40,727 bases of DNA from Oscillibacter sp. (lineage in GTDB: Bacteria > Bacillota > Clostridia > Oscillospirales > Oscillospiraceae). The stretch spans positions 94,998 through 135,724 of the forward strand of contig JAAVHC010000001.1 of assembly GCA_014799925.1 (NCBI GenBank), read 5' to 3'. Below, piece by piece: positions 8,616 through 22,736 of the stretch (positions within the stretch are counted from its first letter, which is position 1; the number at the start of each line of letters is the position of its first letter). The translations under genes and the position numbers were made by a program. The notes below the pieces were generated by a model. It worked only from the letters and a program-made list of their open reading frames with translations, ran no database searches and was not told the origin of the DNA.

Positions 8616-9791
8616 ATGGAGGATATCAAAAAGGAAGCGATGCTTCTGGCTCCGGCGATGGAGGAACTGTTTTTTGCGCTCCATCGCTGCCCGGAGCTGG
8701 GCAGGGGGGAGCGTCAGACCGCGTCCCTGATCCGCCGCCGCCTGGAGGCGCTGGGTATTCCATACACCCCCCTGGCGGACACCGGGACCATGGCGGTCAT
8801 CCGGGGCGGGATGTCAGGCAGGACAATTGGATTCCGGGCGGATATAGACGCGCTGCCCATCACGGAGGATACGGATCTGGCCTACGCGTCCCGGAATCCC
8901 GGCGTGATGCACGCCTGCGGCCACGACTTCCATACCGCCGCCCTGCTGGGCGCGGCGGAGCTGCTGCAAAACCGCCGCGCGGAGCTTCCCGGAACGGTCA
9001 AGCTCTTCTTTCAGCCGGACGAGGAGGGCGATGGCGGCGCGGCCAGGATGATCGGGTTGGGCTGTATGGAGAACCCCCATGTGGACGCCGTGCTCTGCTG
9101 CCACGTGGAGAGCGGCATCCCCACGGGGACCCTGTCCACCCGGTCCGGCCCCGTGTGCGCCGCGTCCAATCCCTTTGCCGTCACGCTGCGGGGCAGAGGG
9201 TCCCATGGAGCCAAGCCGCATCTGGGGAGCGACGTCATCGTGGCCGGAGCGCATATCCTGACCGCCCTGCAAACCATTTCCAGCCGGAGGACCGATCCCA
9301 CGGAGCCGGTGGTGGTGACGGTGGGCTCCTTTCACAGCGGCGCGGCAGGCAACGTCCTGCCGGAGGAGGCGAAGTTTACCGGTATTCTCCGCACAATGGG
9401 GGGCGAGGCCAGGGAGCGGGTGAAGGCGGAGTTCCGCGCCATTGTCTCCGGCGTTGCCGCCGCTATGGGGGTGGAGGCAGAGATCGAGATTTTTGAGAGC
9501 TACCCCGGCTGCCGGAACGACCGGGCCGTCACCGAGCTGCTGCTGCGGGCGGCGGGGAAGATCCTGGGACCGGAGAACATCCTGGAGCAGAACGCTCCCT
9601 CTATGGGTACGGACGATTTCGGATATTTCAGCGATGCGGCGCCCGGCTGCTACTACTATATCGGAGTAGGGAACGAGGCCAAGGGGTACACCTACCCCAA
9701 CCACAACCCCCGCTTTGCGGCGGATCCGGACGCCCTGCCCCTGGCGGCGGCCGTGGAAGCCCAGGCGGCGCTGGACTTCTTAAATGATTGA
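8616..9791 (+). CDS. M20 family metal-dependent amidohydrolase
   Basis: A 391-residue M20D-type peptidase/amidohydrolase (N-acyl-amino-acid deacylase / hippurate hydrolase group). Visible metal-site motifs are GFRADIDALP near residues 71-80, HACGHDFHTAAL near 99-110, FFQPDEEGDGGAARM near 132-146 (the EE pair) and APSMGTDDFGYF near 328-339. The C-terminal HNPRFAADPDAL holds the last metal-binding His. The lid/dimer domain lies between about 185 and 300. It would release an amino acid from an N-acyl or related amide in the cytoplasm. AAAGGAG lies upstream of the ATG. It is followed 9 nt later by an LD-carboxypeptidase-like gene, so the two form an operon, perhaps for salvage of amino acids from peptides or muropeptides. 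Confidence 0.92.
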   Translation: MEDIKKEAMLLAPAMEELFFALHRCPELGRGERQTASLIRRRLEALGIPYTPLADTGTMAVIRGGMSGRTIGFRADIDALPITEDTDLAYASRNPGVMHACGHDFHTAALLGAAELLQNRRAELPGTVKLFFQPDEEGDGGAARMIGLGCMENPHVDAVLCCHVESGIPTGTLSTRSGPVCAASNPFAVTLRGRGSHGAKPHLGSDVIVAGAHILTALQTISSRRTDPTEPVVVTVGSFHSGAAGNVLPEEAKFTGILRTMGGEARERVKAEFRAIVSGVAAAMGVEAEIEIFESYPGCRNDRAVTELLLRAAGKILGPENILEQNAPSMGTDDFGYFSDAAPGCYYYIGVGNEAKGYTYPNHNPRFAADPDALPLAAAVEAQAALDFLND

Positions 9792-9800
9792 GGTAACGTT

Positions 9801-10721
9801 ATGATTTTTCCATGTGAATTGAAGCGGGGCGGGACGGTCCTGCTGGCCGCGCCGTCCTCTCCGCTGGCTCCGGACCAGCCGGTGGAGTCTATCGCCGAAG
9901 CCGTGGAGCGGCTTGGCTTCCGGGTGGTCATCGGCGCGTCCTGCACCGCCCGGCCCTCCGCCTGCGGCTACACTGTGCCGCCGCGGGTCCGGGCGGAGGA
10001 TATCAACCGGGGCTTTGCGGATCCGGCGATCGACGCCGTCTGGTGCGTCCGGGGCGGCGAGGCCGCGTGGCAGATACTGCCCTGGCTGGACTATAGCCGC
10101 ATGGCCGCCCACCCAAAGCCCTTTATCGGGTTCAGTGATATTACCACGCTGCACCTGGCCATCCAGCAGCGGTGCGGCCTGGTGACCTTCCACGGCCCCA
10201 CCGCCAACCAGGTGCTGAAGTGGGACGAGGAGGGGTTCTCCTGGCAGAGCCTCCAGGCTGCGCTGCATATGGGCCGCTGCCTCGCCATTGAAAATCCTCC
10301 CGATGAGCCTGTCAAGGTTCTGCGTCCCGGCAAAGCCTGCGGGATTCTTACCGGCGGAAATCTGTCCCTGGTCACGCAAACCATGGGCATGCCGGAACAG
10401 ATTGACGCTCGGGGTAAAATCCTCTATCTGGAGGACGTGGGCGAGGAGGTCTACGCCCTGGAGCGGATGCTGAACCAGCTGCTGCGGGGCGGCGTGCTGG
10501 AGAGCGCGGAGGGACTGGTGTTCGGCGCGTTTACCAAGTGCCCCAATCACGCAAGAGAGGACTACGGCCCGGAGGAGCTGCTGCGGGAGCTGTTCGGCTG
10601 CTGGCCCAGGCCGGTGCTGTATAACCTCCGCTCCGCCCATTGCCGCCCCATGGTGACGCTGCCCATGGGCGCGATGTGCGGGATCGATGGCGGCGCGGGG
10701 ACCATGACAGTCTACAGATAA
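9801..10721 (+). CDS. S66 family LD-carboxypeptidase / MccF-like peptidase
   Basis: A 306-residue serine peptidase of family S66, which cleaves an LD bond in peptidoglycan tetrapeptides or, in MccF-like members, peptide-nucleotide toxins. The catalytic Ser sits in FIGFSDITTLH near residues 109-119, the Glu in LYLEDVGEEVY near 209-219 and the His in LRSAHCRPMVTLP near 274-286. VRGGEAAWQILPWLDY near 75-90 is the substrate-binding loop. No signal peptide is seen, so it acts in the cytoplasm. The ribosome site is weak (GAGGT 6 nt before ATG) and probably depends on translation of the M20 gene just upstream. A strong bidirectional terminator follows 4 nt after the stop. Confidence 0.92.
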   Translation: MIFPCELKRGGTVLLAAPSSPLAPDQPVESIAEAVERLGFRVVIGASCTARPSACGYTVPPRVRAEDINRGFADPAIDAVWCVRGGEAAWQILPWLDYSRMAAHPKPFIGFSDITTLHLAIQQRCGLVTFHGPTANQVLKWDEEGFSWQSLQAALHMGRCLAIENPPDEPVKVLRPGKACGILTGGNLSLVTQTMGMPEQIDARGKILYLEDVGEEVYALERMLNQLLRGGVLESAEGLVFGAFTKCPNHAREDYGPEELLRELFGCWPRPVLYNLRSAHCRPMVTLPMGAMCGIDGGAGTMTVYR

Positions 10722-10790: not shown

Positions 10791-11999
10791 TTATACTATG
10801 GCGGGCAGCTCGATCCAAAAGGTGTTGCGCCCTCCGCCGCTCTCGGCCCAGATCCTTCCATGGTGCTCCGATACGATAGTCCAGGCGATGGACAGTCCCA
10901 ACCCGCAGCTTCCGTCCCTGCTCCGGGCCCTGTCCAGGCGGTAGAAGCGTTTGAAAATGTTTCCAAGCTCCTCCTGGGGGATATCCTGCCCGGGACTGGA
11001 CACCGACAGCAGGCAGCGACCTCTGTTCCGCCGCTCCAGGGAGACCGTCACCGTCCCGCCGGGAGCGGAATATTTCTGCGCGTTGTCCAGAAGGATCTCC
11101 GCAGTCTGCCGCAGCTGAGCGGGGTCTCCCCGCACGGTGACGCCGTCCTCAAGCCGTTCGGTGAGGGCCAGGCCCCGTTCAAAGAAGATGGCCTCAAAGG
11201 GCAGGACCGCGTCGGAAACCAGTTGGCTCAGATCCAGCGGAACATGCTCCCGCCGGGCGGCGCCGCTGTCCATCCGGGCCAGCTCCAGAAGGTTCTCCAC
11301 CAGGCCCCGCATCTGACGGGACACGGCGAGGATATTGCCGGCCGGCTGCTGGGCGGAGACGGTTTCAGAACCTTGCAGCAGCTCCGCGTTGGTGATGATG
11401 ACCGTGAGGGGCGTTTTCAGCTCGTGGGAGGCGTCGGCAATAAACTGCCTCTGCTGGTCCCAGGCCCGCTCCACCGGGCGCACTGCCCACCGGGCCAGAA
11501 AAAAGCTGAGGAACAAAAAGGCCAGAAATCCCAGACAGCTCCCCAGGATACAGGTCCGGGTAAGGTGGGTCAGTGTGTTCCGCTCGCTGGAGATGTCCGC
11601 GAAGACAAAGCACATTGACTGCTGGGGGGCCGAAACCAGCAGATAGCGCAGACCGTATTCCTCCAGAATGCCGGAGGGCTTACCGGCGGCGGCGACAGCT
11701 TCCACCAGCGCCTCCAAAAAATCCCTGTCAGACAGGTCGTAATAGCTGCCGCCCTCAGCCGCCAGTTCGCCCTCCCTTGTCAGACGCACGGCAAAGCAGG
11801 GAAGATGGATCTTCTCGGGAAGGTGGTCTGGCCGCTTGGGGTCAAAGGGCCTGGAGGCCACGGTCTGCATCATGCGCAGGCTCTCCGCCTCCAGATTCGA
11901 TTGCGTAAAATGAACGATCAGCCCCAGGATCACACACAGCATTCCCATCAGGAACACCATGTTGATACAGATGAATTTGATTCTCAGCTTCTTCAGCAT
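10791..11999 (-). CDS. Sensor histidine kinase of the VTC/CotH locus
   Basis: A 402-residue membrane kinase. One transmembrane helix at about 11-31, an extracytoplasmic sensor of about 115 residues, and a second helix at about 150-168 lead almost directly into HisKA (RQFIADASHELKTPLT, phospho-acceptor His192); no full HAMP domain is apparent. The HATPase part has DNAQKYS (N box) and SCGLGLSIAW (G2 box). It overlaps the end of its response regulator by a few bases, the usual translational coupling. The pair is transcribed away from the VTC-DUF4956-CotH operon, and the two promoters carry matching operators, so the kinase probably senses an envelope signal relevant to that operon. Confidence 0.92.
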   Translation of the reverse strand: MLKKLRIKFICINMVFLMGMLCVILGLIVHFTQSNLEAESLRMMQTVASRPFDPKRPDHLPEKIHLPCFAVRLTREGELAAEGGSYYDLSDRDFLEALVEAVAAAGKPSGILEEYGLRYLLVSAPQQSMCFVFADISSERNTLTHLTRTCILGSCLGFLAFLFLSFFLARWAVRPVERAWDQQRQFIADASHELKTPLTVIITNAELLQGSETVSAQQPAGNILAVSRQMRGLVENLLELARMDSGAARREHVPLDLSQLVSDAVLPFEAIFFERGLALTERLEDGVTVRGDPAQLRQTAEILLDNAQKYSAPGGTVTVSLERRNRGRCLLSVSSPGQDIPQEELGNIFKRFYRLDRARSRDGSCGLGLSIAWTIVSEHHGRIWAESGGGRNTFWIELPAIV

Positions 12000-12670
12000 T
12001 CCGGCGACACCTCCAGATGGTAGCCCAGACGCCGGATGGCCTCAATGCGGATGTTGGAGCCGATGCTGGCCAGCTTTTTGCGCAGAAAGCCCACATAGAC
12101 CTCCACGTGGTTCTCCACCGCGTTGGAGTCAAAGCCCCACACACGGGCCAGGATGACCTCCTTGGACAGATTCTGCTCCCGGTTCTGGAGCAGATACCGC
12201 ATCACGTCGAACTCGCGGGCGGACAGCCGCACGCGCTTTTCTCCGCATACCAGCATGCCGGAGGCCAGGTCCAGCGCGGTGTTGCCAAAGACCAGCTCGT
12301 CCACCTGCCCGCCCTGGCGGCGGAGCAGGGCGTTGATGCAGGCCAGCAGCTCCCGGGAATCGAAGGGCTTGGTCAGGTAGTAGTCCGCCCCGGCGTTCAG
12401 TCCCTCGATCCGGTCCTCCAGCTCCGATTTGGCCGTCAGCATCAGGATGGGCACCGCGCACCGCCTGGCCCGGACCCGCCGGGCCACCTGATAGCCGTCC
12501 AGCCTGGGCATCATCACATCCAGGATCAGCAGGTCGTAGACGCCCAGCTCCGCGTACTCCACGCCGGCTTCCCCGTCGTACACCGTCTCCACCTGAAAGC
12601 CCTTGCCCTCCAGCAGCGTTTTCAGCGATTGGGCCAGCAGCGTATCGTCCTCGATCACTAAGATTTTCAT
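11993..12670 (-). CDS. OmpR/PhoB family response regulator of the VTC/CotH locus
   Basis: A 225-residue response regulator. The receiver domain has the acidic pocket IEDD (8-9), phospho-acceptor Asp51 in LILDVMMPR, and LTAKSE/KPF switch residues. A C-terminal winged helix (about 125-222) carries the LSAREFDVMRYLLQN start and RRLGYHLEV wing of the PhoB class. The ATG at 12670 follows GGGAGGACATCC; an upstream frame start was rejected because it would run through the promoter. The mirrored TTTCAG direct repeats ahead of its own promoter and of the divergent VTC promoter are spaced as PhoB-class sites are, so autoregulation and activation of the VTC operon are likely. Confidence 0.93.
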   Translation of the reverse strand: MKILVIEDDTLLAQSLKTLLEGKGFQVETVYDGEAGVEYAELGVYDLLILDVMMPRLDGYQVARRVRARRCAVPILMLTAKSELEDRIEGLNAGADYYLTKPFDSRELLACINALLRRQGGQVDELVFGNTALDLASGMLVCGEKRVRLSAREFDVMRYLLQNREQNLSKEVILARVWGFDSNAVENHVEVYVGFLRKKLASIGSNIRIEAIRRLGYHLEVSPEC

Positions 12671-12701
12671 GGATGTCCTCCCGAACCTGTTTTTACTTCT
12701 T

Positions 12702-12735
12702 ATCATACCGCGCAATCCTGAAAGGGAGCTGAAAG
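12702..12735 (-). promoter_or_regulatory. Promoter and direct-repeat operator of the response regulator-kinase operon
   Basis: On the minus strand, two TTTCAG half-sites exactly 11 bp apart (12734-12729 and 12723-12718), then exactly 10 bp, then TATGAT (12707-12702). No good -35 is present, as expected for an activator-dependent promoter. Confidence 0.65.
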
Positions 12736-12775
12736 AATCCGCGTTAAAAAAAGGTTTACATTTTCACCGGCAGTT

Positions 12776-12808
12776 TTTCAGGAAGGTTTCAGCATTCGGT
12801 GGTAAAGT
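12776..12808 (+). promoter_or_regulatory. Promoter and direct-repeat operator of the VTC-DUF4956-CotH operon
   Basis: Two TTTCAG half-sites 11 bp apart (12776-12781 and 12787-12792), then 10 bp, then a TAAAGT -10 (12803-12808). This is the same geometry as the divergent promoter. Confidence 0.65.
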
Positions 12809-12834
12809 TCGAAGCCGGTAAAGGAAGTGAAATG

Positions 12835-13503
12835 ATGTATCGACACGAGTGGAAGCACGAAATCAATCTGAGCGACCGGCTGGTCATCCGCCAGCGGCTG
12901 CGGGCGGTGGCCCGGCCGGACCCCCACGCCAGAGACGGCCGCTATCGCATTCGCAGCCTGTATTTTGATACGCCCACTGACAAAGCGCTGCGGGAGAAGA
13001 TCGACGGAGTGGACTGGCGGGAGAAATTCCGGCTGCGGTTCTACAACGAAGACGTCTCCCTCATTCATCTGGAAAAGAAGAGCAAGCGCAATGGCCTGAG
13101 CGCCAAGGAAACCGTCTCTCTCACCGCCGCCGAGGTCCAGGCCATCCTGGACGGCGATCTGGCCTGGATGCCGGCCAGCGGCCGGCCCCTGATGATGGAG
13201 CTGTACAGTAAAATGAGTTGTCAGCTCCTGCGCCCCAAGACTGTTGTGGATTATACCCGGGAACCCTTCGTCTATCCCCCGGGGAACGTCCGGGTCACAC
13301 TGGACTACGACATCCGCACCGGCCTGGGCTGTACCGATTTTCTCGATCCCGATTGCCTGACCATCCCCGCCGGAGACGCCCCCGCCATTCTGGAGGTGAA
13401 GTGGGATTCCTACCTGCCGGAGGTGATCCGGGCCGCCGTCCAGCTGCCGGGCCGGCGCGCTTCCGCCTTTTCCAAATACGCCGCCTGCCGCATTTACGGC
13501 TGA
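12835..13503 (+). CDS. VTC-domain (polyphosphate polymerase-like) protein
   Basis: A 222-residue protein consisting of a single VTC/CYTH-like triphosphate-tunnel domain. Typical features are the YRHEWKHEI opening, IRSLYFDTPTDKALREK, KFRLRFYN, HLEKKSKRNGLSAKE (basic residues lining the tunnel) and the late acidic strand ILEVKWDSYLPEVI. In yeast Vtc4 this fold makes polyphosphate from ATP; in bacteria such domains sit next to DUF4956 and CotH genes and their reaction is not settled. No membrane segment is present, so it is cytoplasmic. Two adjacent ATGs occur; the second (12835) is 7-8 nt from GGAAG and gives the usual family N terminus. It is the first gene of the operon. Confidence 0.88.
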   Translation: MYRHEWKHEINLSDRLVIRQRLRAVARPDPHARDGRYRIRSLYFDTPTDKALREKIDGVDWREKFRLRFYNEDVSLIHLEKKSKRNGLSAKETVSLTAAEVQAILDGDLAWMPASGRPLMMELYSKMSCQLLRPKTVVDYTREPFVYPPGNVRVTLDYDIRTGLGCTDFLDPDCLTIPAGDAPAILEVKWDSYLPEVIRAAVQLPGRRASAFSKYAACRIYG

Positions 13504-13552: not shown

Positions 13553-14227
13553 ATGACGACCTTTCAAGACATCTTCAAATCCGGCTTTCTGGAAAACGTC
13601 ACCAGCGTGTCCCTTCCGGACATGGTGATCGCCCTGGTTCTGGCCTTCTGCATCGGCCTGTTCATTTTCCTGGTCTATCAGAAGACCTTCACCGGCGTGA
13701 TGTACTCCTCCAGCTTCGGCGTCACCCTGGTGGCCCTCACCATGATCACCACCCTGGTCATCCTGGCCGTTACCAGCAACGTGGTGCTGAGCCTGGGCAT
13801 GGTGGGCGCGCTGTCCATCGTCCGGTTCCGCACCGCCATCAAGGAGCCCCTGGACATCGCTTTCCTCTTCTGGTCCATCGCCGCGGGCATCGTCCTGGCA
13901 GCGGGCATGATTCCTCTGGCGGTGCTGGGCAGCGTGGCCATCGGCGTTACCCTGCTGGTTTTTGTCAACAGGAAGTCCTATGTCAACCCCTATATCGTGG
14001 TGCTCCAGTGCGACGGCCACGACAGCGAAGTCCGGGCCCGCGCCTGCCTGGACCGGCAGACCCGGCGCTGCGTGGTCAAAAGCAAGACCGTCCAGAAGGG
14101 CATGGTGGAGCTGAACCTGGAGATCCGTCTGAAAGAGGACAACACCGACTTCATCAATACGCTGGCCGAAATGGAGGGCGTTCAGAGCGCCGTGCTGGTC
14201 AGCTACAACGGGGATTACCTGGGATAA
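13553..14227 (+). CDS. DUF4956 membrane protein
   Basis: A 224-residue protein with about four transmembrane helices in residues 20-145. The family signature is GMVGALSIVRFRTAIKEPLDIAFLFWSIAAG (about 83-113), followed by a soluble C-terminal domain (about 150-222) resembling a small ferredoxin-like/ACT-type fold. The function of DUF4956 is unknown; its consistent partners are VTC-domain and CotH proteins, as here, so it may be the membrane channel or anchor of that system. The GAGGAG site before ATG is good. The gap to the VTC gene is 49 bp and to CotH 10 bp, indicating one transcript. Confidence 0.88.
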   Translation: MTTFQDIFKSGFLENVTSVSLPDMVIALVLAFCIGLFIFLVYQKTFTGVMYSSSFGVTLVALTMITTLVILAVTSNVVLSLGMVGALSIVRFRTAIKEPLDIAFLFWSIAAGIVLAAGMIPLAVLGSVAIGVTLLVFVNRKSYVNPYIVVLQCDGHDSEVRARACLDRQTRRCVVKSKTVQKGMVELNLEIRLKEDNTDFINTLAEMEGVQSAVLVSYNGDYLG

Positions 14228-14237
14228 GGAGGCGGCC

Positions 14238-16139
14238 ATGTCAACGCATAAGCACATCGACCGGATCTGCGCGGCTGCCCTGATTCTCTCCCTGGCGCTG
14301 TCCTGCCTTATGGTGAGCGGCAAGGCCCTGGGTCTCTGGACGGCCTCCCGGGCGATGGGCTATGAGAGCCGCCTGTTTGACGCCTCCAGAGTACACACTG
14401 TTGAGATCGTCATGGACGACTGGGATTCCTTTCTGGAGACCTGCGAGGACGAGGAATATGTTCCCTGCTCGGTGGTCATCGACAACGAGGGCTTCAAAAA
14501 CGTGGCCCTCCGGGCCAAGGGGAATACCTCCCTGAGCAGCGTATCCGCTCTGGGCAGCAGCCGGTACAGCTTCAAGCTGGAGTTCGACCACTATGACAGC
14601 GGTAAGACTTACTACGGCCTGGATAAGCTGTGCCTGAACAACCTGATCCAGGACAACACCTATATGAAGGACTATCTGACCTACCGCCTGATGGCTTCCT
14701 TCGGCGTGGCCGCGCCCCTGTGCAGCTATGTCCATATCACCGTCAACGGAGAGGACTGGGGGCTGTATCTGGCGGTAGAGGGGCTGGAGGACGGCTTCCT
14801 CCAGCGCAATTACGGCACACGGCACGGTCAGCTGTATAAGCCGGACAGCATGAGCTTCGGCGGAGGCCGGGGAAACGGCCGGGCGTTCAACATGGAGGAC
14901 TTTGATTTCGGCAATAGGGAAAGTCCCGTCCAGCCTGAATTGACGGAGCTGCCTGACGGGCAGGCGTTTCAGGGCGGCCTGCGGGGCGGTCCGGGTGAGA
15001 ACGGCATGGGCCGCGGACGCGAGGCGGACAGGGAAGGCCGTGGCCAGGACGGCGGTTTCGGCGGCGGCATGGGGTCCGACGACGTCAAGCTGAAATATAT
15101 AGACGACGACCCGGACAGCTACGCCAACATTTTCGACAGCGCCAAGACCAATGTCTCCCAGACGGACCAGGCGCGGCTGATCCAGGCGCTGAAAATCCTC
15201 AGCGAGGGCGGCGATGTGTCCGGGGCAGTGGATATCGACGCGGTCCTGCGGTATTTCGTAGTCCACAATTTTGTGGTCAATGGGGACAGCTATACCGGCT
15301 CCATGATTCATAACTACTATCTCTATGAGGAGGACGGCCTGCTGTCCATGCTCCCCTGGGACTATAATCTGGCCTTCGGCGGCTTCCAGGGGAACAATGC
15401 CTCCTCGGCGGTGAACGATCCCATCGACACGCCGCTGTCCGTCACCGGGTCCGGCGACCGGCCCATGGCCGACTGGATTTTCTCCAGCGAGGAGTACACC
15501 CGGCTGTACCACCAGTACTTCTCTGAATTCTTAGAGACAGTGGACTGCGCCGCCATCATCGACCAGGCGCAGGCGCTCATCGCTCCCTACGTGGAACAGG
15601 ACCCCACCAGGTTCTGCACCTATGAGGAGTTTACCTCCGGCGCGGAGGCGCTGAAGCTCTTCTGCGCCCTCCGCCGGGAGAGCGTATCCGGTCAGCTGGC
15701 CGGGACCATTCCCTCTACCAGCCAGGGCCGGACCGGTTCCGCCGCGCTGGTCGACGCTTCCGGGCTGACGCTGTCCGACATGGGCTCCATGAACCAGGGC
15801 GGCTTTGGCGGCGGCGCTAATGATGGCGGCTTTGACCGAACGCCCGGTGAGGGTGCGTTTGAGCGTCCCGACGGAGGCAATGCGGAACCGGATGGGGCCG
15901 TTCCGGCCTTTGGCCCGATGCGGGGAGGTTCAGAGAATATGGAACCGTCCGGCGGGAAATTCGGCGGCCGTCCGTCATCGGAGATGTCCGGCGGATTTCC
16001 GGGCGGCGGCGTGCCGGGGAACGGCGGCGCTCCCGGCGGCGCATTGGACAGCGGCGTCTGGATTTTACTGGGCGCGTCCGTTTTCATCCTGCTTCTGGGA
16101 CTGCTGGCCGCCCTCCGGTTCAAACGATTCGGAAGATAA
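14238..16139 (+). CDS. CotH family protein kinase-like surface protein
   Basis: A 633-residue CotH-type atypical kinase. There is an N-terminal signal/anchor helix (about 10-30) and a C-terminal transmembrane helix (about 606-626) followed by RFKRFGR, so the catalytic part is outside the membrane. CotH features include VALRAKGNTS and SRYSFKLEF (Lys of the nucleotide site) near 90-115, LCLNNLIQDNTYMKDYL, VHITVNGEDWGLYLAVEG, and the late LPWDYNLAFGG metal-binding motif. Two Gly/Arg/Asp-rich low-complexity inserts interrupt or follow the fold (about 208-285 and 510-600). CotH proteins phosphorylate secreted proteins, in Bacillus the spore-coat proteins. AAGGAGG precedes the ATG. It is the last gene of the VTC operon, closed by a bidirectional terminator. 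Confidence 0.88.
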   Translation: MSTHKHIDRICAAALILSLALSCLMVSGKALGLWTASRAMGYESRLFDASRVHTVEIVMDDWDSFLETCEDEEYVPCSVVIDNEGFKNVALRAKGNTSLSSVSALGSSRYSFKLEFDHYDSGKTYYGLDKLCLNNLIQDNTYMKDYLTYRLMASFGVAAPLCSYVHITVNGEDWGLYLAVEGLEDGFLQRNYGTRHGQLYKPDSMSFGGGRGNGRAFNMEDFDFGNRESPVQPELTELPDGQAFQGGLRGGPGENGMGRGREADREGRGQDGGFGGGMGSDDVKLKYIDDDPDSYANIFDSAKTNVSQTDQARLIQALKILSEGGDVSGAVDIDAVLRYFVVHNFVVNGDSYTGSMIHNYYLYEEDGLLSMLPWDYNLAFGGFQGNNASSAVNDPIDTPLSVTGSGDRPMADWIFSSEEYTRLYHQYFSEFLETVDCAAIIDQAQALIAPYVEQDPTRFCTYEEFTSGAEALKLFCALRRESVSGQLAGTIPSTSQGRTGSAALVDASGLTLSDMGSMNQGGFGGGANDGGFDRTPGEGAFERPDGGNAEPDGAVPAFGPMRGGSENMEPSGGKFGGRPSSEMSGGFPGGGVPGNGGAPGGALDSGVWILLGASVFILLLGLLAALRFKRFGR

Positions 16140-16187
16140 TTCCGCATAGTTCGCTTCCGCCGTTATGGCCGGCTTTATCAGAAAAAT

Positions 16188-16220
16188 GAGCCCTCGCATG
16201 TCCGCGAGGGCTCTTCTTTA
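16188..16220. terminator. Bidirectional terminator between cotH and sigF
   Basis: A perfect 10-bp stem, GAGCCCTCGC/GCGAGGGCTC, with a 6-nt loop. It is T-rich to the right and has a TTTTT on the minus strand, so it also closes the leftward spoIIA operon. About 100 bp of AT-richer sequence up to the sigF stop shows nothing else. Confidence 0.85.
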
Positions 16221-16320
16221 TTATTTCCTGACTTCGTATTATAGTTCAAATTGGGAGCGATGGCAAGAAATATTTTGGAAAATGGAAATTTGGACACCTG
16301 TCCCTTCCGCGGGAACGCGC

Positions 16321-17025
16321 CTATTCCATCTGCTGGCGCAGCTTTTCGATGGCCCTTTTTTCCAGACGGGAGACCTGCACCTGGCTGACGAGGAGGATCT
16401 TCGCGCATTGCTGCTGGGTCAGACCCTTGTAAAACCGCAGGAGGATCGTTTTCTTCTCCTGCTCCGGGAGGGAGTCGATGGCGGTTCTCAGGGCGATGCG
16501 CTCCAGCAGGTTTTCCTCTGTGACAGGGGAGGCCAGAGTGGACTCCAGGGTCAGGCCGTCCGCGTTTTCCTGCTGGAGGCTGTCAGGGGGCGCCGCGGCC
16601 AGCTCGGCCATGGCGATCTCCTCCGGGGTGAGGCCGGTGGCGTCGCTGAGCTCCGACAGGACCGGCTCCCGCCCCAGGCTTGTCCGCAGGCGCTCGCGGG
16701 CGGTATAGACGCTGATGCTCTGCTCACGGAGGCCGCGGCCGACCTTGATGAGACCGTTATCCCGGAGATACCGCCGGATCTCCCCGGCAATTTTTGGCAC
16801 GGCATAGGTGGAAAACTGCGTGCCGTATTCCGCGTCAAAGCCCCGCACCGCTTTCAAAAACCCCAGACATCCCAGCTGATACAGGTCGTCCGGCTCGACG
16901 CCCTTGCCAAAATAGCGCCGGACGACCGCCCAGATAAGGCCGCTGTTTTCCTCCAGAACCCGTGCGGCGGCGGCCTCGTCTCCCTGCTTGGCCTGCGCCA
17001 GAAGGTCCAGGGTTTCCGCCGTCAT
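16321..17025 (-). CDS. sigF: RNA polymerase sporulation sigma factor SigF
   Basis: A 234-residue sigma-70 factor of the SigF/SigG group, the first forespore-specific sigma factor. Region 2 spans about residues 25-95 (DDLYQLGCLGFLKAVRGFDAEYGTQFSTYAVPKIAGEIRRYLRDNG is the core-binding and -10 recognition part). Region 3 covers about 100-150, and region 4 about 170-232, with the helix-turn-helix LTQQQCAKILLVSQVQVSRLEKRAIEKL. It is assigned to SigF rather than SigG because it is the third gene of an AA-AB-sigma operon. Its ATG overlaps the spoIIAB stop as ATGA. Activity should be held by SpoIIAB until SpoIIAA is dephosphorylated. Confidence 0.95.
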   Translation of the reverse strand: MTAETLDLLAQAKQGDEAAAARVLEENSGLIWAVVRRYFGKGVEPDDLYQLGCLGFLKAVRGFDAEYGTQFSTYAVPKIAGEIRRYLRDNGLIKVGRGLREQSISVYTARERLRTSLGREPVLSELSDATGLTPEEIAMAELAAAPPDSLQQENADGLTLESTLASPVTEENLLERIALRTAIDSLPEQEKKTILLRFYKGLTQQQCAKILLVSQVQVSRLEKRAIEKLRQQME

Positions 17026-17468
17026 CGGACGGGCCGGCGGGGCTGGATCCGCCGGCGCATGATGACACGGGTGCCCCTGCCCTCCTGGGAACGGACGGTC
17101 AGGCTGTCCATGAAGCTCTCCATGATGGTGAACCCCATGCCGCTGCGCTCCTCGCCGCCGGTGGTGTAGAGGGGCTGGCGCGCCCGCTCAATGTCGGGAA
17201 TGCCCCGTCCCCAGTCCCGTACGGAGATTTCCAGCACATTTTCCGGCAGGATTCGGGCTTTGATGACGATCCTTCCCAGCCGGTCGGGGTAGGCGTGAAC
17301 GATGGCGTTGGTCACCGCCTCGCTGACGGCGGTTTTGATGTCCCCCAGCTCCTCCAGCGTAGGGTCCAGCTGCGCGGCGAAGCAGGCCGCCGCTCCCCGG
17401 GCAAAGCTCTCGTTGGCGCTGCGGCTGAGAAATTCCAGGGTTATGTAGTTTTCACTTTTCGGTTTCAT
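17022..17468 (-). CDS. spoIIAB: Anti-sigma F factor / serine kinase SpoIIAB
   Basis: A 148-residue GHKL-fold kinase. It binds SigF and phosphorylates SpoIIAA. The N box is TAVSEAVTNAIVHAYPDR (about 45-62), the G1 box is VRDWGRGIPDIERA (about 80-93), and the G2/lid segment is TTGGEERSGMGFTIMESFMD (about 98-117). Length is normal for the family. The ATG at 17468 has GAGGG upstream; a TTG-started frame six codons longer was rejected because that ribosome site would fall inside it. The gene starts 104 bp after spoIIAA, an unusually wide gap for this operon, filled by a copy of the dispersed intergenic repeat. Confidence 0.95.
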   Translation of the reverse strand: MKPKSENYITLEFLSRSANESFARGAAACFAAQLDPTLEELGDIKTAVSEAVTNAIVHAYPDRLGRIVIKARILPENVLEISVRDWGRGIPDIERARQPLYTTGGEERSGMGFTIMESFMDSLTVRSQEGRGTRVIMRRRIQPRRPVR

Positions 17469-20671: not shown

Positions 20672-22051
20672 TCAGGATTCCCGGTGCTTCCGGAAGACGA
20701 CGGTGCTGACGTACACCCCCTCCGACAGCGACGCCTCCAGCGTCCCGCCGGACCGGGCCATCAGCTCCTTCATGGTGGGCACGCCCACGCCCCGGCTGTC
20801 GGAACGGTCCGGCGCGGCCTTCGCCCGGTTTTCCAGCCGCAGGGTCACGGTATCCGGGCCGTCCTTTGCTTGGATGCGGATAGGGAAGGCGGGGTCGGCG
20901 TATTTTTTGAAATTGGAGAACAGATTGTCAAAGACCCGTACCACGTCTTCTGTCCGCAGGTACAATGAAAAGCTCCGCTCAAGCGCCGGGAGCCGGACCT
21001 CGAAGCCCTCCCGGCGGAGGTCGTGGCCCTGTTCCGCCAGCAGCTGTCCCAGCAGGGCGGCCCCGTCCACGATCTCCGGCGGGTGCTCCAGACCGGCCTC
21101 CGGGGCGTCCACCTGGGCGCGGTCAAAGAGCTGGTCCGTCAGGTTTTTCAGCTGGGCGGCCTTCTCCGAGGCCAGACGGAGAAAGGCGTCATGCTCCTCC
21201 TGATTCCGGTACTTCTGATAAATGAGGATGTCCAGGTATCCCGTCAGCTTGGTCAGCGGCGTCCGAAGGTCGTGGGACAGGGAGGTGATCAGGCGGCTGT
21301 TGGCGCTGACCGCCTCCCGCTCGCCGGCCAGACGGGCCGCTACGGACCGGCGCAGGCGCTCGATGTCCTCGCCCAGGGCGCTGAGCTCGTCGCGGCCCTC
21401 GATATGGATGCTGTGCTCCAGATTGCCGGCCATCAGGACGCCGGTTTCGCGGGAAAGCACGCCGATGCGGCGGACCAGGCGGACAATACAGGGGATCATC
21501 ACCGCGCAAAAGCCCAGGAGGGCCAGCAGCAGTCCCGCGATCCGCACCAGCCCCGCGTACCGGTCCGCGGCGGATGGTACGGAGATGTAGAGTACGCCGT
21601 CGGCACACTGAATCGGGTGCATCTCCATGACAAACTCCACGCTGGCCGTATGGGGGACGTCCGTCTCCGTCAGCCCGGCCCAGGTGATGCTGTAGCCAAC
21701 GCCGCCGTATTCCGCGTATTCGACGGCGGCAGTGCCGCCCGTCGGGAGGACGGCTTCCGCCGGCATGGGAGTCCCCACCATGATGGTATAGATCCCGGAG
21801 GCCAGCTTCCCGTCCGTGTCGTCGACGGCCTGCCGCACGGAGAGACGGTTTTCCGTCACATACGCCTGATAGGCCTCCACGGCGGCCTCGTTCCGGCTCT
21901 TCCAGAAGCCGGAAAACCGCTCGCTGTAGAGCAGCCAGGGCCCAACCACGCTGCTGACCAGATAGAAAACGGCAAAGGCCAGGACCAGCCCCAGGAGCGA
22001 TATGCCGATCAGCTTGCTTCCCAGGCGGGAGAACGCGCGTTTATTTTCCAA
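20672..22051 (-). CDS. Sensor histidine kinase
   Basis: A 459-residue kinase. It has a transmembrane helix at about 15-36, an extracytoplasmic domain of about 130 residues, a second helix at about 170-190, a HAMP linker to about 245, HisKA with SLITSLSHDLRTPLTKL-type motif (here ITSLSHDLRTPLTKL; His260), and an HATPase domain whose N box is FDNLFSNFKKYA and whose G region is DSRGVGVPTMKELMARSGG. The G2 box is less Gly-rich than usual. A TTG start at 22051 was chosen: AAGGGG lies 7 nt upstream and the frame overlaps the response regulator end by 11 nt; longer in-frame starts lie deep inside that gene. The stop codon abuts the MITE. Confidence 0.88.
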   Translation of the reverse strand: MENKRAFSRLGSKLIGISLLGLVLAFAVFYLVSSVVGPWLLYSERFSGFWKSRNEAAVEAYQAYVTENRLSVRQAVDDTDGKLASGIYTIMVGTPMPAEAVLPTGGTAAVEYAEYGGVGYSITWAGLTETDVPHTASVEFVMEMHPIQCADGVLYISVPSAADRYAGLVRIAGLLLALLGFCAVMIPCIVRLVRRIGVLSRETGVLMAGNLEHSIHIEGRDELSALGEDIERLRRSVAARLAGEREAVSANSRLITSLSHDLRTPLTKLTGYLDILIYQKYRNQEEHDAFLRLASEKAAQLKNLTDQLFDRAQVDAPEAGLEHPPEIVDGAALLGQLLAEQGHDLRREGFEVRLPALERSFSLYLRTEDVVRVFDNLFSNFKKYADPAFPIRIQAKDGPDTVTLRLENRAKAAPDRSDSRGVGVPTMKELMARSGGTLEASLSEGVYVSTVVFRKHRES

Positions 22052-22736
22052 TGCGATACCCCTTCCCCCAGACGGTTTTGATGTACTCCGGATGCCGTGG
22101 GTCCGGCTCAAGCTTTTCCCGCAAACGGCGGATATGGACCATGACGGTATTGGCGGAGGAGGGGAAGTACGTCTCCTGCCATACGCTCTCATAGAGATTT
22201 TCCATGGAAAAGATTTTTCCGCAGTTCTGGACCAGCAGCCGCAGGATGCGCCACTCGGTGTCGGTCAGGTCGATCTCTTTGTCGTTCCGCCAGACCATGT
22301 TGCCGGTGAGGCTGACCCGAAGTCCGCACCACTCCGCCTCCTCCTGGACGGCCTCCGGCTTGCCACGGTAGACCTGGTACCGCCGCAGCAGGCCCTTTAC
22401 CCGGGCCAGCAGCTCCGGATAGGAGAAGGGCTTTGTCAGGTAGTCGTCCCCGCCGCTGGAGTAGCCCATGGTCAGGTCTGACTCCTTGCTTTTGGCGGTG
22501 AGAAACAGCACCGGCACGTTCCACCTTTCCCGCAGCCGGAGGCACACATGGTACCCGGATACGTCGTCCATCATGACGTCCAGAATCACCAGATCGACAG
22601 GATGCTCCTCCAGATATTGCAGCGCTTCCTGCCCGCAGGAGGCTTCCGCCACCTCGAAATGCTCTCCCGTCAGAAGAATCCGCAGAACGTCGCGGATTTC
22701 CCGGTCGTCGTCCACAATCAATATTTTATCGCCCAT
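22041..22736 (-). CDS. OmpR/PhoB family response regulator
   Basis: A 231-residue response regulator. The receiver domain has acidic DDD (9-11), phospho-acceptor Asp53 in LVILDVMMDD, Thr/Lys switch residues in LTAKSK and KPF. The C-terminal winged helix (about 130-228) contains LTDTEWRILRLLVQN and the recognition helix NTVMVHIRRLREKLEPD. GGGGGG lies 5 nt before the ATG. It is first in an operon with the overlapping kinase. Its targets may include the downstream lipoprotein gene, given order and the repeat-containing promoter there; this is inference. Confidence 0.93.
   Translation of the reverse strand: MGDKILIVDDDREIRDVLRILLTGEHFEVAEASCGQEALQYLEEHPVDLVILDVMMDDVSGYHVCLRLRERWNVPVLFLTAKSKESDLTMGYSSGGDDYLTKPFSYPELLARVKGLLRRYQVYRGKPEAVQEEAEWCGLRVSLTGNMVWRNDKEIDLTDTEWRILRLLVQNCGKIFSMENLYESVWQETYFPSSANTVMVHIRRLREKLEPDPRHPEYIKTVWGKGYRIGK

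Follow-up and report, generated by a model that had tools for sequence, protein, structure and literature searches.

Mirrored TTTCAG direct repeats as putative operators joining a two-component system to a VTC-DUF4956-CotH operon in Oscillibacter

A divergent promoter pair in Oscillibacter sp. is probably run by its own two-component system, whose response regulator would activate both itself and a VTC-DUF4956-CotH operon. We put the probability of this reading of the sequence at roughly 0.83. The two promoters share the intergenic region 12671-12831, between the regulator and kinase genes (minus strand) and the VTC-DUF4956-CotH operon (plus strand), and each carries a TTTCAG-N5-TTTCAG direct repeat. 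Operons of the VTC-DUF4956-CotH type are common across gut Clostridia, and little is understood about them. Candidates for the regulator and its operator, together with a probable kind of signal, offer a handle on when the VTC operon is expressed. Throughout, 'the window' means the whole stretch of 40,727 nucleotides that was analysed.

Genes of the locus

The regulator gene (11993-12670, minus strand) encodes an OmpR/PhoB-family response regulator with a receiver and a winged helix, for which PF00072 and PF00486 (Trans_reg_C) both score above cut-off; it belongs to a monophyletic clade. The sensor histidine kinase (10791-11999, minus strand) has HisKA and HATPase_c domains and two membrane helices flanking a sensor of ~115 residues. 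On the plus strand lie the genes for a VTC-domain protein (12832-13503) and, identified by Pfam, a DUF4956 protein (13553-14227) and a CotH-family kinase (14238-16139). The VTC-domain protein reaches 125.5 bits against PF09359, where the gathering score is 23, and is distantly related to yeast Vtc4 (E=1e-5). By domain score it is VTC polyphosphate polymerase-like. Several Arg, Lys and Glu residues, which we take to be catalytic, are invariant in 12 relatives. The window's genome has a second, distant VTC-domain gene (G000:C9:109935-110552), 27% identical.

Several neighbours were recorded alongside. M20 peptidase and S66 LD-carboxypeptidase genes (8616-10721, plus strand) converge on the kinase gene. 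A gene for a sigma-70-type factor with regions 2, 3 and 4 (16321-17025, minus strand) is convergent with cotH. A candidate plus-strand gene opposite it (X334, 16165-17169) was set aside, as Pfam gave no match and the ORF is probably a shadow of the sigma factor gene. The VTC operon also has a second two-component system a few kb away (20672-22736, minus strand; regulator 22041-22736, kinase 20672-22192).

Mirrored operators without a -35

The preliminary description had reported a mirrored TTTCAG-N5-TTTCAG-N10 geometry with no good -35 at either promoter. Reading the bases one by one on both strands confirmed the repeat sequence, the 11-bp period and the N10 distance. On the minus strand, TTTCAG (12734-12729) is followed by N5, TTTCAG (12723-12718), N10 and TATGAT (12707-12702). 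The exact repeat TTTCAGCTCCCTTTCAG (12718-12734), conserved in orthologs, is the putative operator of the regulator's own promoter, and the -10-like TATGAT 10 bp past it (12702-12707) keeps the conserved TANNNT spacing; transcription would start near 12695. On the plus strand, TTTCAG (12776-12781), N5, TTTCAG (12787-12792) and N10 lead to TAAAGT (12803-12808). Here the putative operator of the VTC operon is the exact repeat TTTCAGGAAGGTTTCAG (12776-12792), with counterparts in 12/12 loci that have a divergent ortholog of the regulator. The -10-like TAAAGT, again at the conserved TANNNT spacing and without a -35, would place the transcription start near 12815, ahead of the VTC start codon, the ATG at 12832. 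On neither strand of the intergenic region did we find a sigma-70 promoter with a -35, and at spacing 16-18 the closest approach to TTGACA on the VTC side is 2/6, in agreement with the preliminary description. At PhoB/OmpR class II promoters, 11-bp repeats replace the -35. The direct repeats described here likewise stand in the -35's place with an 11-bp period, as expected of an OmpR/PhoB tandem operator.

In the proposed mechanism, the kinase would sense an extramembrane signal and phosphorylate the regulator. Where a -35 is missing, a regulator dimer would then bind TTTCAG-N5-TTTCAG head-to-tail and recruit RNA polymerase. It would act on both sides, driving its own operon in positive feedback as well as VTC-DUF4956-CotH. 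We infer binding, and activation over repression, the latter from promoter geometry. Alternatively, the boxes could be true operators at which the regulator acts as a repressor of one promoter or of both, perhaps by occluding the -35 region, until the signal relieves it. OmpR-family regulators are able to act either way, and CiaR represses manLMN according to the available portion of a review (PMC8317062). However, the region offers no -35 to an unaided polymerase, and the conserved N10 to the -10 fits an activator that replaces the -35; we regard repression as unlikely.

Exact and near matches to the box

In exact form the box is confined to these two promoters. Allowing up to two mismatches, the window holds 6 matches to TTTCAG-N5-TTTCAG where 1.88 are expected, a number that 1/100 shuffles gets to; the only exact matches are the two divergent-promoter copies. 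The same holds for the assembly (2.97 Mb, 97.86% complete, 84 contigs), in which the exact repeat occurs twice, both times in this intergenic region. With up to one mismatch the assembly has 19 box matches vs 23 for the reversed pattern, so near-matches at this level are background. When the -10 is included and one mismatch permitted, 7 matches stand against 0 for the reversed control, and these two are again the only exact ones. Four of the other five overlap mechanical ORFs of at least 100 aa; for the fifth (L323), no suitable gene follows closely, the sole ORF being one of 100 aa ~290 bp downstream.

Conservation at regulator promoters

Across 200 family genomes, a search for the strict box plus its -10 gives 77 matches, all distinct strings, in 45 genomes, compared with 1 for the reversed pattern. 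It is present in 19/27 genomes with an ortholog of the regulator and in 26/173 without, a comparison tallied by hand and then tested, in which one of the 27 (G189) is a partial hit. Of 26 regulator promoters, 15 have two identical hexamers at lag 11 ahead of a -10, and none has them at any of the other nine lags; among 26 VTC promoters (at least 60% identity) the same arrangement occurs at lag 11 in 9, at lag 9 in 1 and otherwise never. Information content is 0.26-0.35 bit in the spacers vs 1.5-1.9 bit in the half-sites; these conservation figures, from a logo that omits L282, are partly circular, as the promoters were anchored on the box and TANNNT.

The box precedes most, though not all, orthologs. 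Within one mismatch it lies before the regulator's own gene in 29/43, in 24 of those with no mismatch, and in some orthologs one half-site is TTTAAG or CTTAAG. Autoregulation is therefore not universal: 14/43 orthologs have no own box within one mismatch and with a fitting -10. Away from VTC, 7/8 scorable orthologs have no own box within one mismatch; L314, where the contig ends within the gene, was left out of this scoring. These orthologs are L311, L312 and L315-L319, and in 5/7 of their genomes VTC nonetheless retains the box.

A tree built from 77 regulators recovers the window's clade as monophyletic (34 members, support 0.993), grouped with other TTTCAG regulators; clades RR40, RR42, RR45 and RR46 are placed elsewhere. 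Its members come from Oscillospiraceae, Ruminococcus and other Clostridia, and the clade is nested in a wider TTTCAG-promoter group. A second regulator clade, ~48% identical, also has a TTTCAG box before its own gene (L130, L133, L134, L144, L157, L177, L180-L182), and in some of its genomes HlyD-type and Cthe_2159 genes are box-bearing as well.

Could the repeats be a coincidence, or have been kept only through the relatedness of the loci? All the loci do have homologous genes, and some of them (L274, L282) are close relatives. Yet spacers and flanks are unconserved, the box stands before unrelated genes in the same family (77 matches vs 1 reversed), and the half-sites change where the regulator changes. 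Coincidence or shared ancestry alone is highly improbable as the explanation, and these controls already contradict it.

Covariation with the regulator at VTC promoters

Contigs of titled genomes with DUF4956, together with earlier loci, gave 117 regions upstream of VTC, of which 115 are non-redundant (L243 and L251 were excluded as duplicates). The contig scan for VTC/DUF4956 kept 80 of 586 confirmed stretches, so the loci are at least these; the set also excludes partial hits, VTC proteins below 45% identity and any promoter lying at the edge of a contig. A regulator counted as adjacent only if it lay within 3 kb and not downstream, and genome-wide presence of the regulator was scored for the 200 family genomes and the 50 genomes behind L230-L309.

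The box follows the regulator in cis. A TTCAG box precedes VTC at 12/12 loci with a recognised divergent ortholog vs 13/103 others (p=8e-10), where the 13 include L231, whose regulator does adjoin its VTC, and the 12 are not fully independent because L274 and L282 are close relatives. Shuffled sequences gave 0/2300. The regulator side of all 12 loci also carries the box within one mismatch. The eight of them that carry titles belong to Ruminococcus, Oscillospiraceae or other Clostridia.

The association extends to trans. Where the regulator is not adjacent (L231 being excluded here), it is found in the genomes of 8/11 TTCAG-type promoters vs 8/75 others (p=3e-5). The exceptions are 8 genomes with the regulator and a box-less VTC promoter, and 3 with the box and without the regulator. 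Three of the 8 cases of regulator without box (L089, L117, L119) have a VTC protein only 50-54% identical to the window's. Two of the 8 agreeing cases may be near neighbours: in L234 each of the two genes sits close to a contig end, on different contigs, and they could in reality adjoin, and in L067 they share a contig, ~6.7 kb apart. The preliminary description had proposed looking for the repeats in orthologous loci and for covariation with the regulator, and both were found (12/12; 8/11 vs 8/75). Its claim that the regulator acts on its own and the VTC promoters is well supported by this conservation and covariation; that the regulator would activate them is argued from promoter geometry.

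A further alternative is that another regulator of the wider TTTCAG group binds the boxes, the neighbour being a bystander. The second clade, ~48% identical, is itself preceded by this box, and in three genomes a TTCAG-type VTC promoter is present although the window's clade is not. Against this, the window's genome (G000) has one regulator only at E<=1e-50, with 14/41 candidates scored; the box and the window's clade co-occur in cis and in trans; and the regulator's own promoter carries the box. We consider a bystander role quite improbable.

A second direct repeat

The VTC promoter may receive a second input. A weak direct repeat, TTAAAA-N5-TTTACA (12744-12760, plus strand), lies 32 bp upstream of the VTC operator and has one mismatch to TTHACA-N5-TTHACA. 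Within one mismatch, such pairs occur at lag 11 in 26/115 VTC promoters; other lags from 7 to 16 give 0-12. Eighteen of the 20 pairs with a scored main box sit 21-23, 31-33 or 42-43 bp upstream of it, although four of the 21-bp cases (L242, L260, L286, L290) have poor main boxes and are to be discounted. Exact pairs are found in relatives L068, L085, L101 and L234, 31-33 bp from the main box. The pair is possibly the site of a second OmpR-family regulator, and PhoP is a candidate, a lead and not a result.

If PhoP did bind there, control could be composite, with phosphate as the main switch via the TTHACA pair and the TTTCAG system as a modulator. The lag-11 enrichment of the pair (26/115 vs 0-12) and its mostly preferred positions favour such a scheme, as does an upstream pair within one mismatch at 6/16 pstS-like loci. 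On the other side, the window's pair is imperfect, 89/115 VTC promoters have no pair within one mismatch, and TTCACA half-sites, judged by eye, also precede other genes in these genomes. The scheme is further weakened by the window genome's own pstS-like locus (L203), which has no TTHACA pair within one mismatch. Phosphate as the main switch seems rather improbable to us. Among relatives, pstS-like genes at L195-L198, L200 and L202 stand behind TTTACA-type pairs of 11-bp period (within one mismatch), possible PhoP boxes for the family. Tandem TTCACA-type repeats of the same period were also seen near other genes (~1501; L217, L218, L220, L221, L225, L226, L228); at L221 the ORF downstream of them is Hsp20-like by eye.

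VTC operons beside other regulators

An OmpR-type regulator lies within 3 kb, divergent or upstream, at 35/115 VTC promoters, and these regulators are not all of the window's clade. Clade RR42 lies upstream of VTC in the same direction. A CTAAG half-site occurs at 9/11 VTC promoters beside RR42 vs 0/24 beside other regulators; one RR42-adjacent VTC (L254) has a TTCAG-like box at N9. RR42's own promoter has a matching box at 2/11 loci only (L265, L289). Beside clade RR40, VTC is preceded by TTTAAC-N5-TTTAAG at 3/4 loci, with a spacing of N9, not N10. At L109 the gene of a distant regulator is preceded by TTTGAG-N5-GTTGAG and VTC by ATTGAG-N5-TTTGAG (the TTGAG class, 1/1), and at L261 and L301 TTCAAT-type repeats are common to the regulator and VTC sides. 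Beyond the window's clade, then, a box is common to both sides at L265, L289, L109, L261 and L301.

Across 37 regulator-VTC pairs, the score averages 13.35 for a regulator's own VTC promoter, 11.14 (sd 2.39) for pairs from different clades and 8.31 for shuffled sequence. The window's clade and L109 thus show clear pairing, the other loci a moderate signal. Taken together, six half-site models cover, within one mismatch, 62/115 VTC promoters vs 1/575 shuffles and 0/115 reversed, where the half-site classes other than TTCAG were mostly chosen after inspection of the data. One operon under several regulator clades and operators is a natural experiment on how regulators and sites change together. 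These patterns tentatively suggest that VTC-DUF4956-CotH is a portable envelope-response module. Its control would have passed among two-component clades, with half-sites at a nearly constant distance from the -10 switching along with each regulator (TTCAG, CTAAG, TTTAAC/TTTAAG, TTGAG, TTCAA) and, in part of the lineage, a second TTHACA operator at helical-turn distances adding to the envelope signal another input, possibly phosphate. We give this idea lower weight because RR42's own box occurs at only 2/11 loci and RR40 uses N9, and we hold it possible but doubtful.

Signal and outputs

The genes behind the box in relatives bear on what the system responds to. Named by Pfam scans for 20 and by BLAST similarity for the others, the 74 genes behind strict boxes comprise 24 response regulators (23 of them from the wider TTTCAG group), 12 ABC ATPases, 4 HtrA-type proteases, 4 HlyD-type adaptors, 5 of the Cthe_2159 group, 5 of lipoprotein type, 3 VTC and 17 single cases. 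Four of the five lipoprotein-type genes (cluster 2) were scanned against Pfam and had no family match (L170, L173, L176, L187). In relatives the box is also found before transglycosylase and subtilase genes. In genomes with the window's clade, the kinase gene is immediately followed by a boxed gene of ABC-ATPase, HtrA or NPCBM type at L072, L073, L077, L079 and L084. HtrA-type genes stand behind the box in four ortholog-bearing relatives (L075, L077, L175, L186), and are adjacent to the kinase in L077 only.

The kinase sensor is similarly conserved whichever of these genes adjoins it. Mean identity to the window's sensor is 42% where the neighbour is VTC (n=9), 45% for ABC (3), 40% for HtrA (1), 48% for NPCBM (1), 39% for unassigned neighbours (12) and 38% in trans cases (2). 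Judging from these sequences, one signal probably feeds different envelope outputs, of which VTC is the one in the window's species, and this argues against a dedicated phosphate regulator. Envelope stress is a likelier signal than phosphate, given that regulator orthologs with such similarly conserved sensors adjoin, or share genomes with, boxed HtrA, ABC-ATPase and surface-protein genes.

The idea that the regulator itself serves phosphate control found no support: the protein scores below PhoB models, and the boxes of relatives precede HtrA, ABC-ATPase, HlyD, Cthe_2159, transglycosylase and subtilase genes. Neither the domain scores nor the boxed neighbour genes yielded a link between regulator and phosphate. 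The preliminary description had further called the regulator dedicated to the VTC system. That description suits, at most, this genome, with its two high-confidence sites only. It fails in relatives, where the box stands before HtrA, ABC-ATPase and surface genes and VTC is paired with other regulators and boxes.

Comparison with known systems

In the literature searched, mainly titles and abstracts with subscription journals largely outside its reach, we found neither a TTTCAG-N5-TTTCAG operator nor a regulator of VTC-DUF4956-CotH. The gene families themselves have been seen together before. According to the accessible part of PMC7112168, cotH, polyphosphate polymerase and DUF4956 accessory genes adjoin Pel clusters in streptococci and clostridia, and the window's operon likewise has these three gene families in one cluster. 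Similarly, the portion of PMC2879425 at hand describes a Clostridium perfringens locus with VTC-domain and CotH genes together. The available parts of these two papers describe no regulator or operator for the cotH, polyphosphate polymerase and DUF4956 genes.

The regulator scores below the NCBIfam equivalog cut-offs for PmrA (161 of 330 bits), PhoB (163 of 296), RppA (185 of 250) and TctD (176 of 337). It differs from PhoB both in falling short of the PhoB model and in showing no link to phosphate. By analogy, its operator design resembles those of CiaR and PmrA. As excerpted from PMC3973317, PmrA/BasR of enterobacteria has two six-base half-sites five bases apart (CTTAAT, CCTAAG), with the activated full-length protein head-to-tail on both. 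The CCTAAG half-site is similar to the CTAAG class of VTC promoters described above; the window's regulator differs from PmrA in its score, its half-site and its targets.

The streptococcal CiaRH system offers the other comparison. In the parts of the CiaR papers available, CiaR binds TTTAAG-N5-TTTAAG, later given as NTTAAG-N5-TTTAAG, has htrA as a target and affects its own operon (PMC8317062, PMC3091779; also PMC8186281, PMC9603419), and a change in the second hexamer of CiaR promoters lowers activity (PMC9603419). Both systems have a hexamer direct repeat with an N5 spacer upstream of a conserved -10, and both would feed back on their own operon. The likeness may extend to targets, as the box precedes HtrA-type genes in four relatives, whereas the window's genome has only the two strict boxes described here. 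The two nonetheless differ in half-site, which is TTTCAG on both sides here and TTTAAG or NTTAAG for CiaR, and in target, which here would be the VTC-DUF4956-CotH operon.
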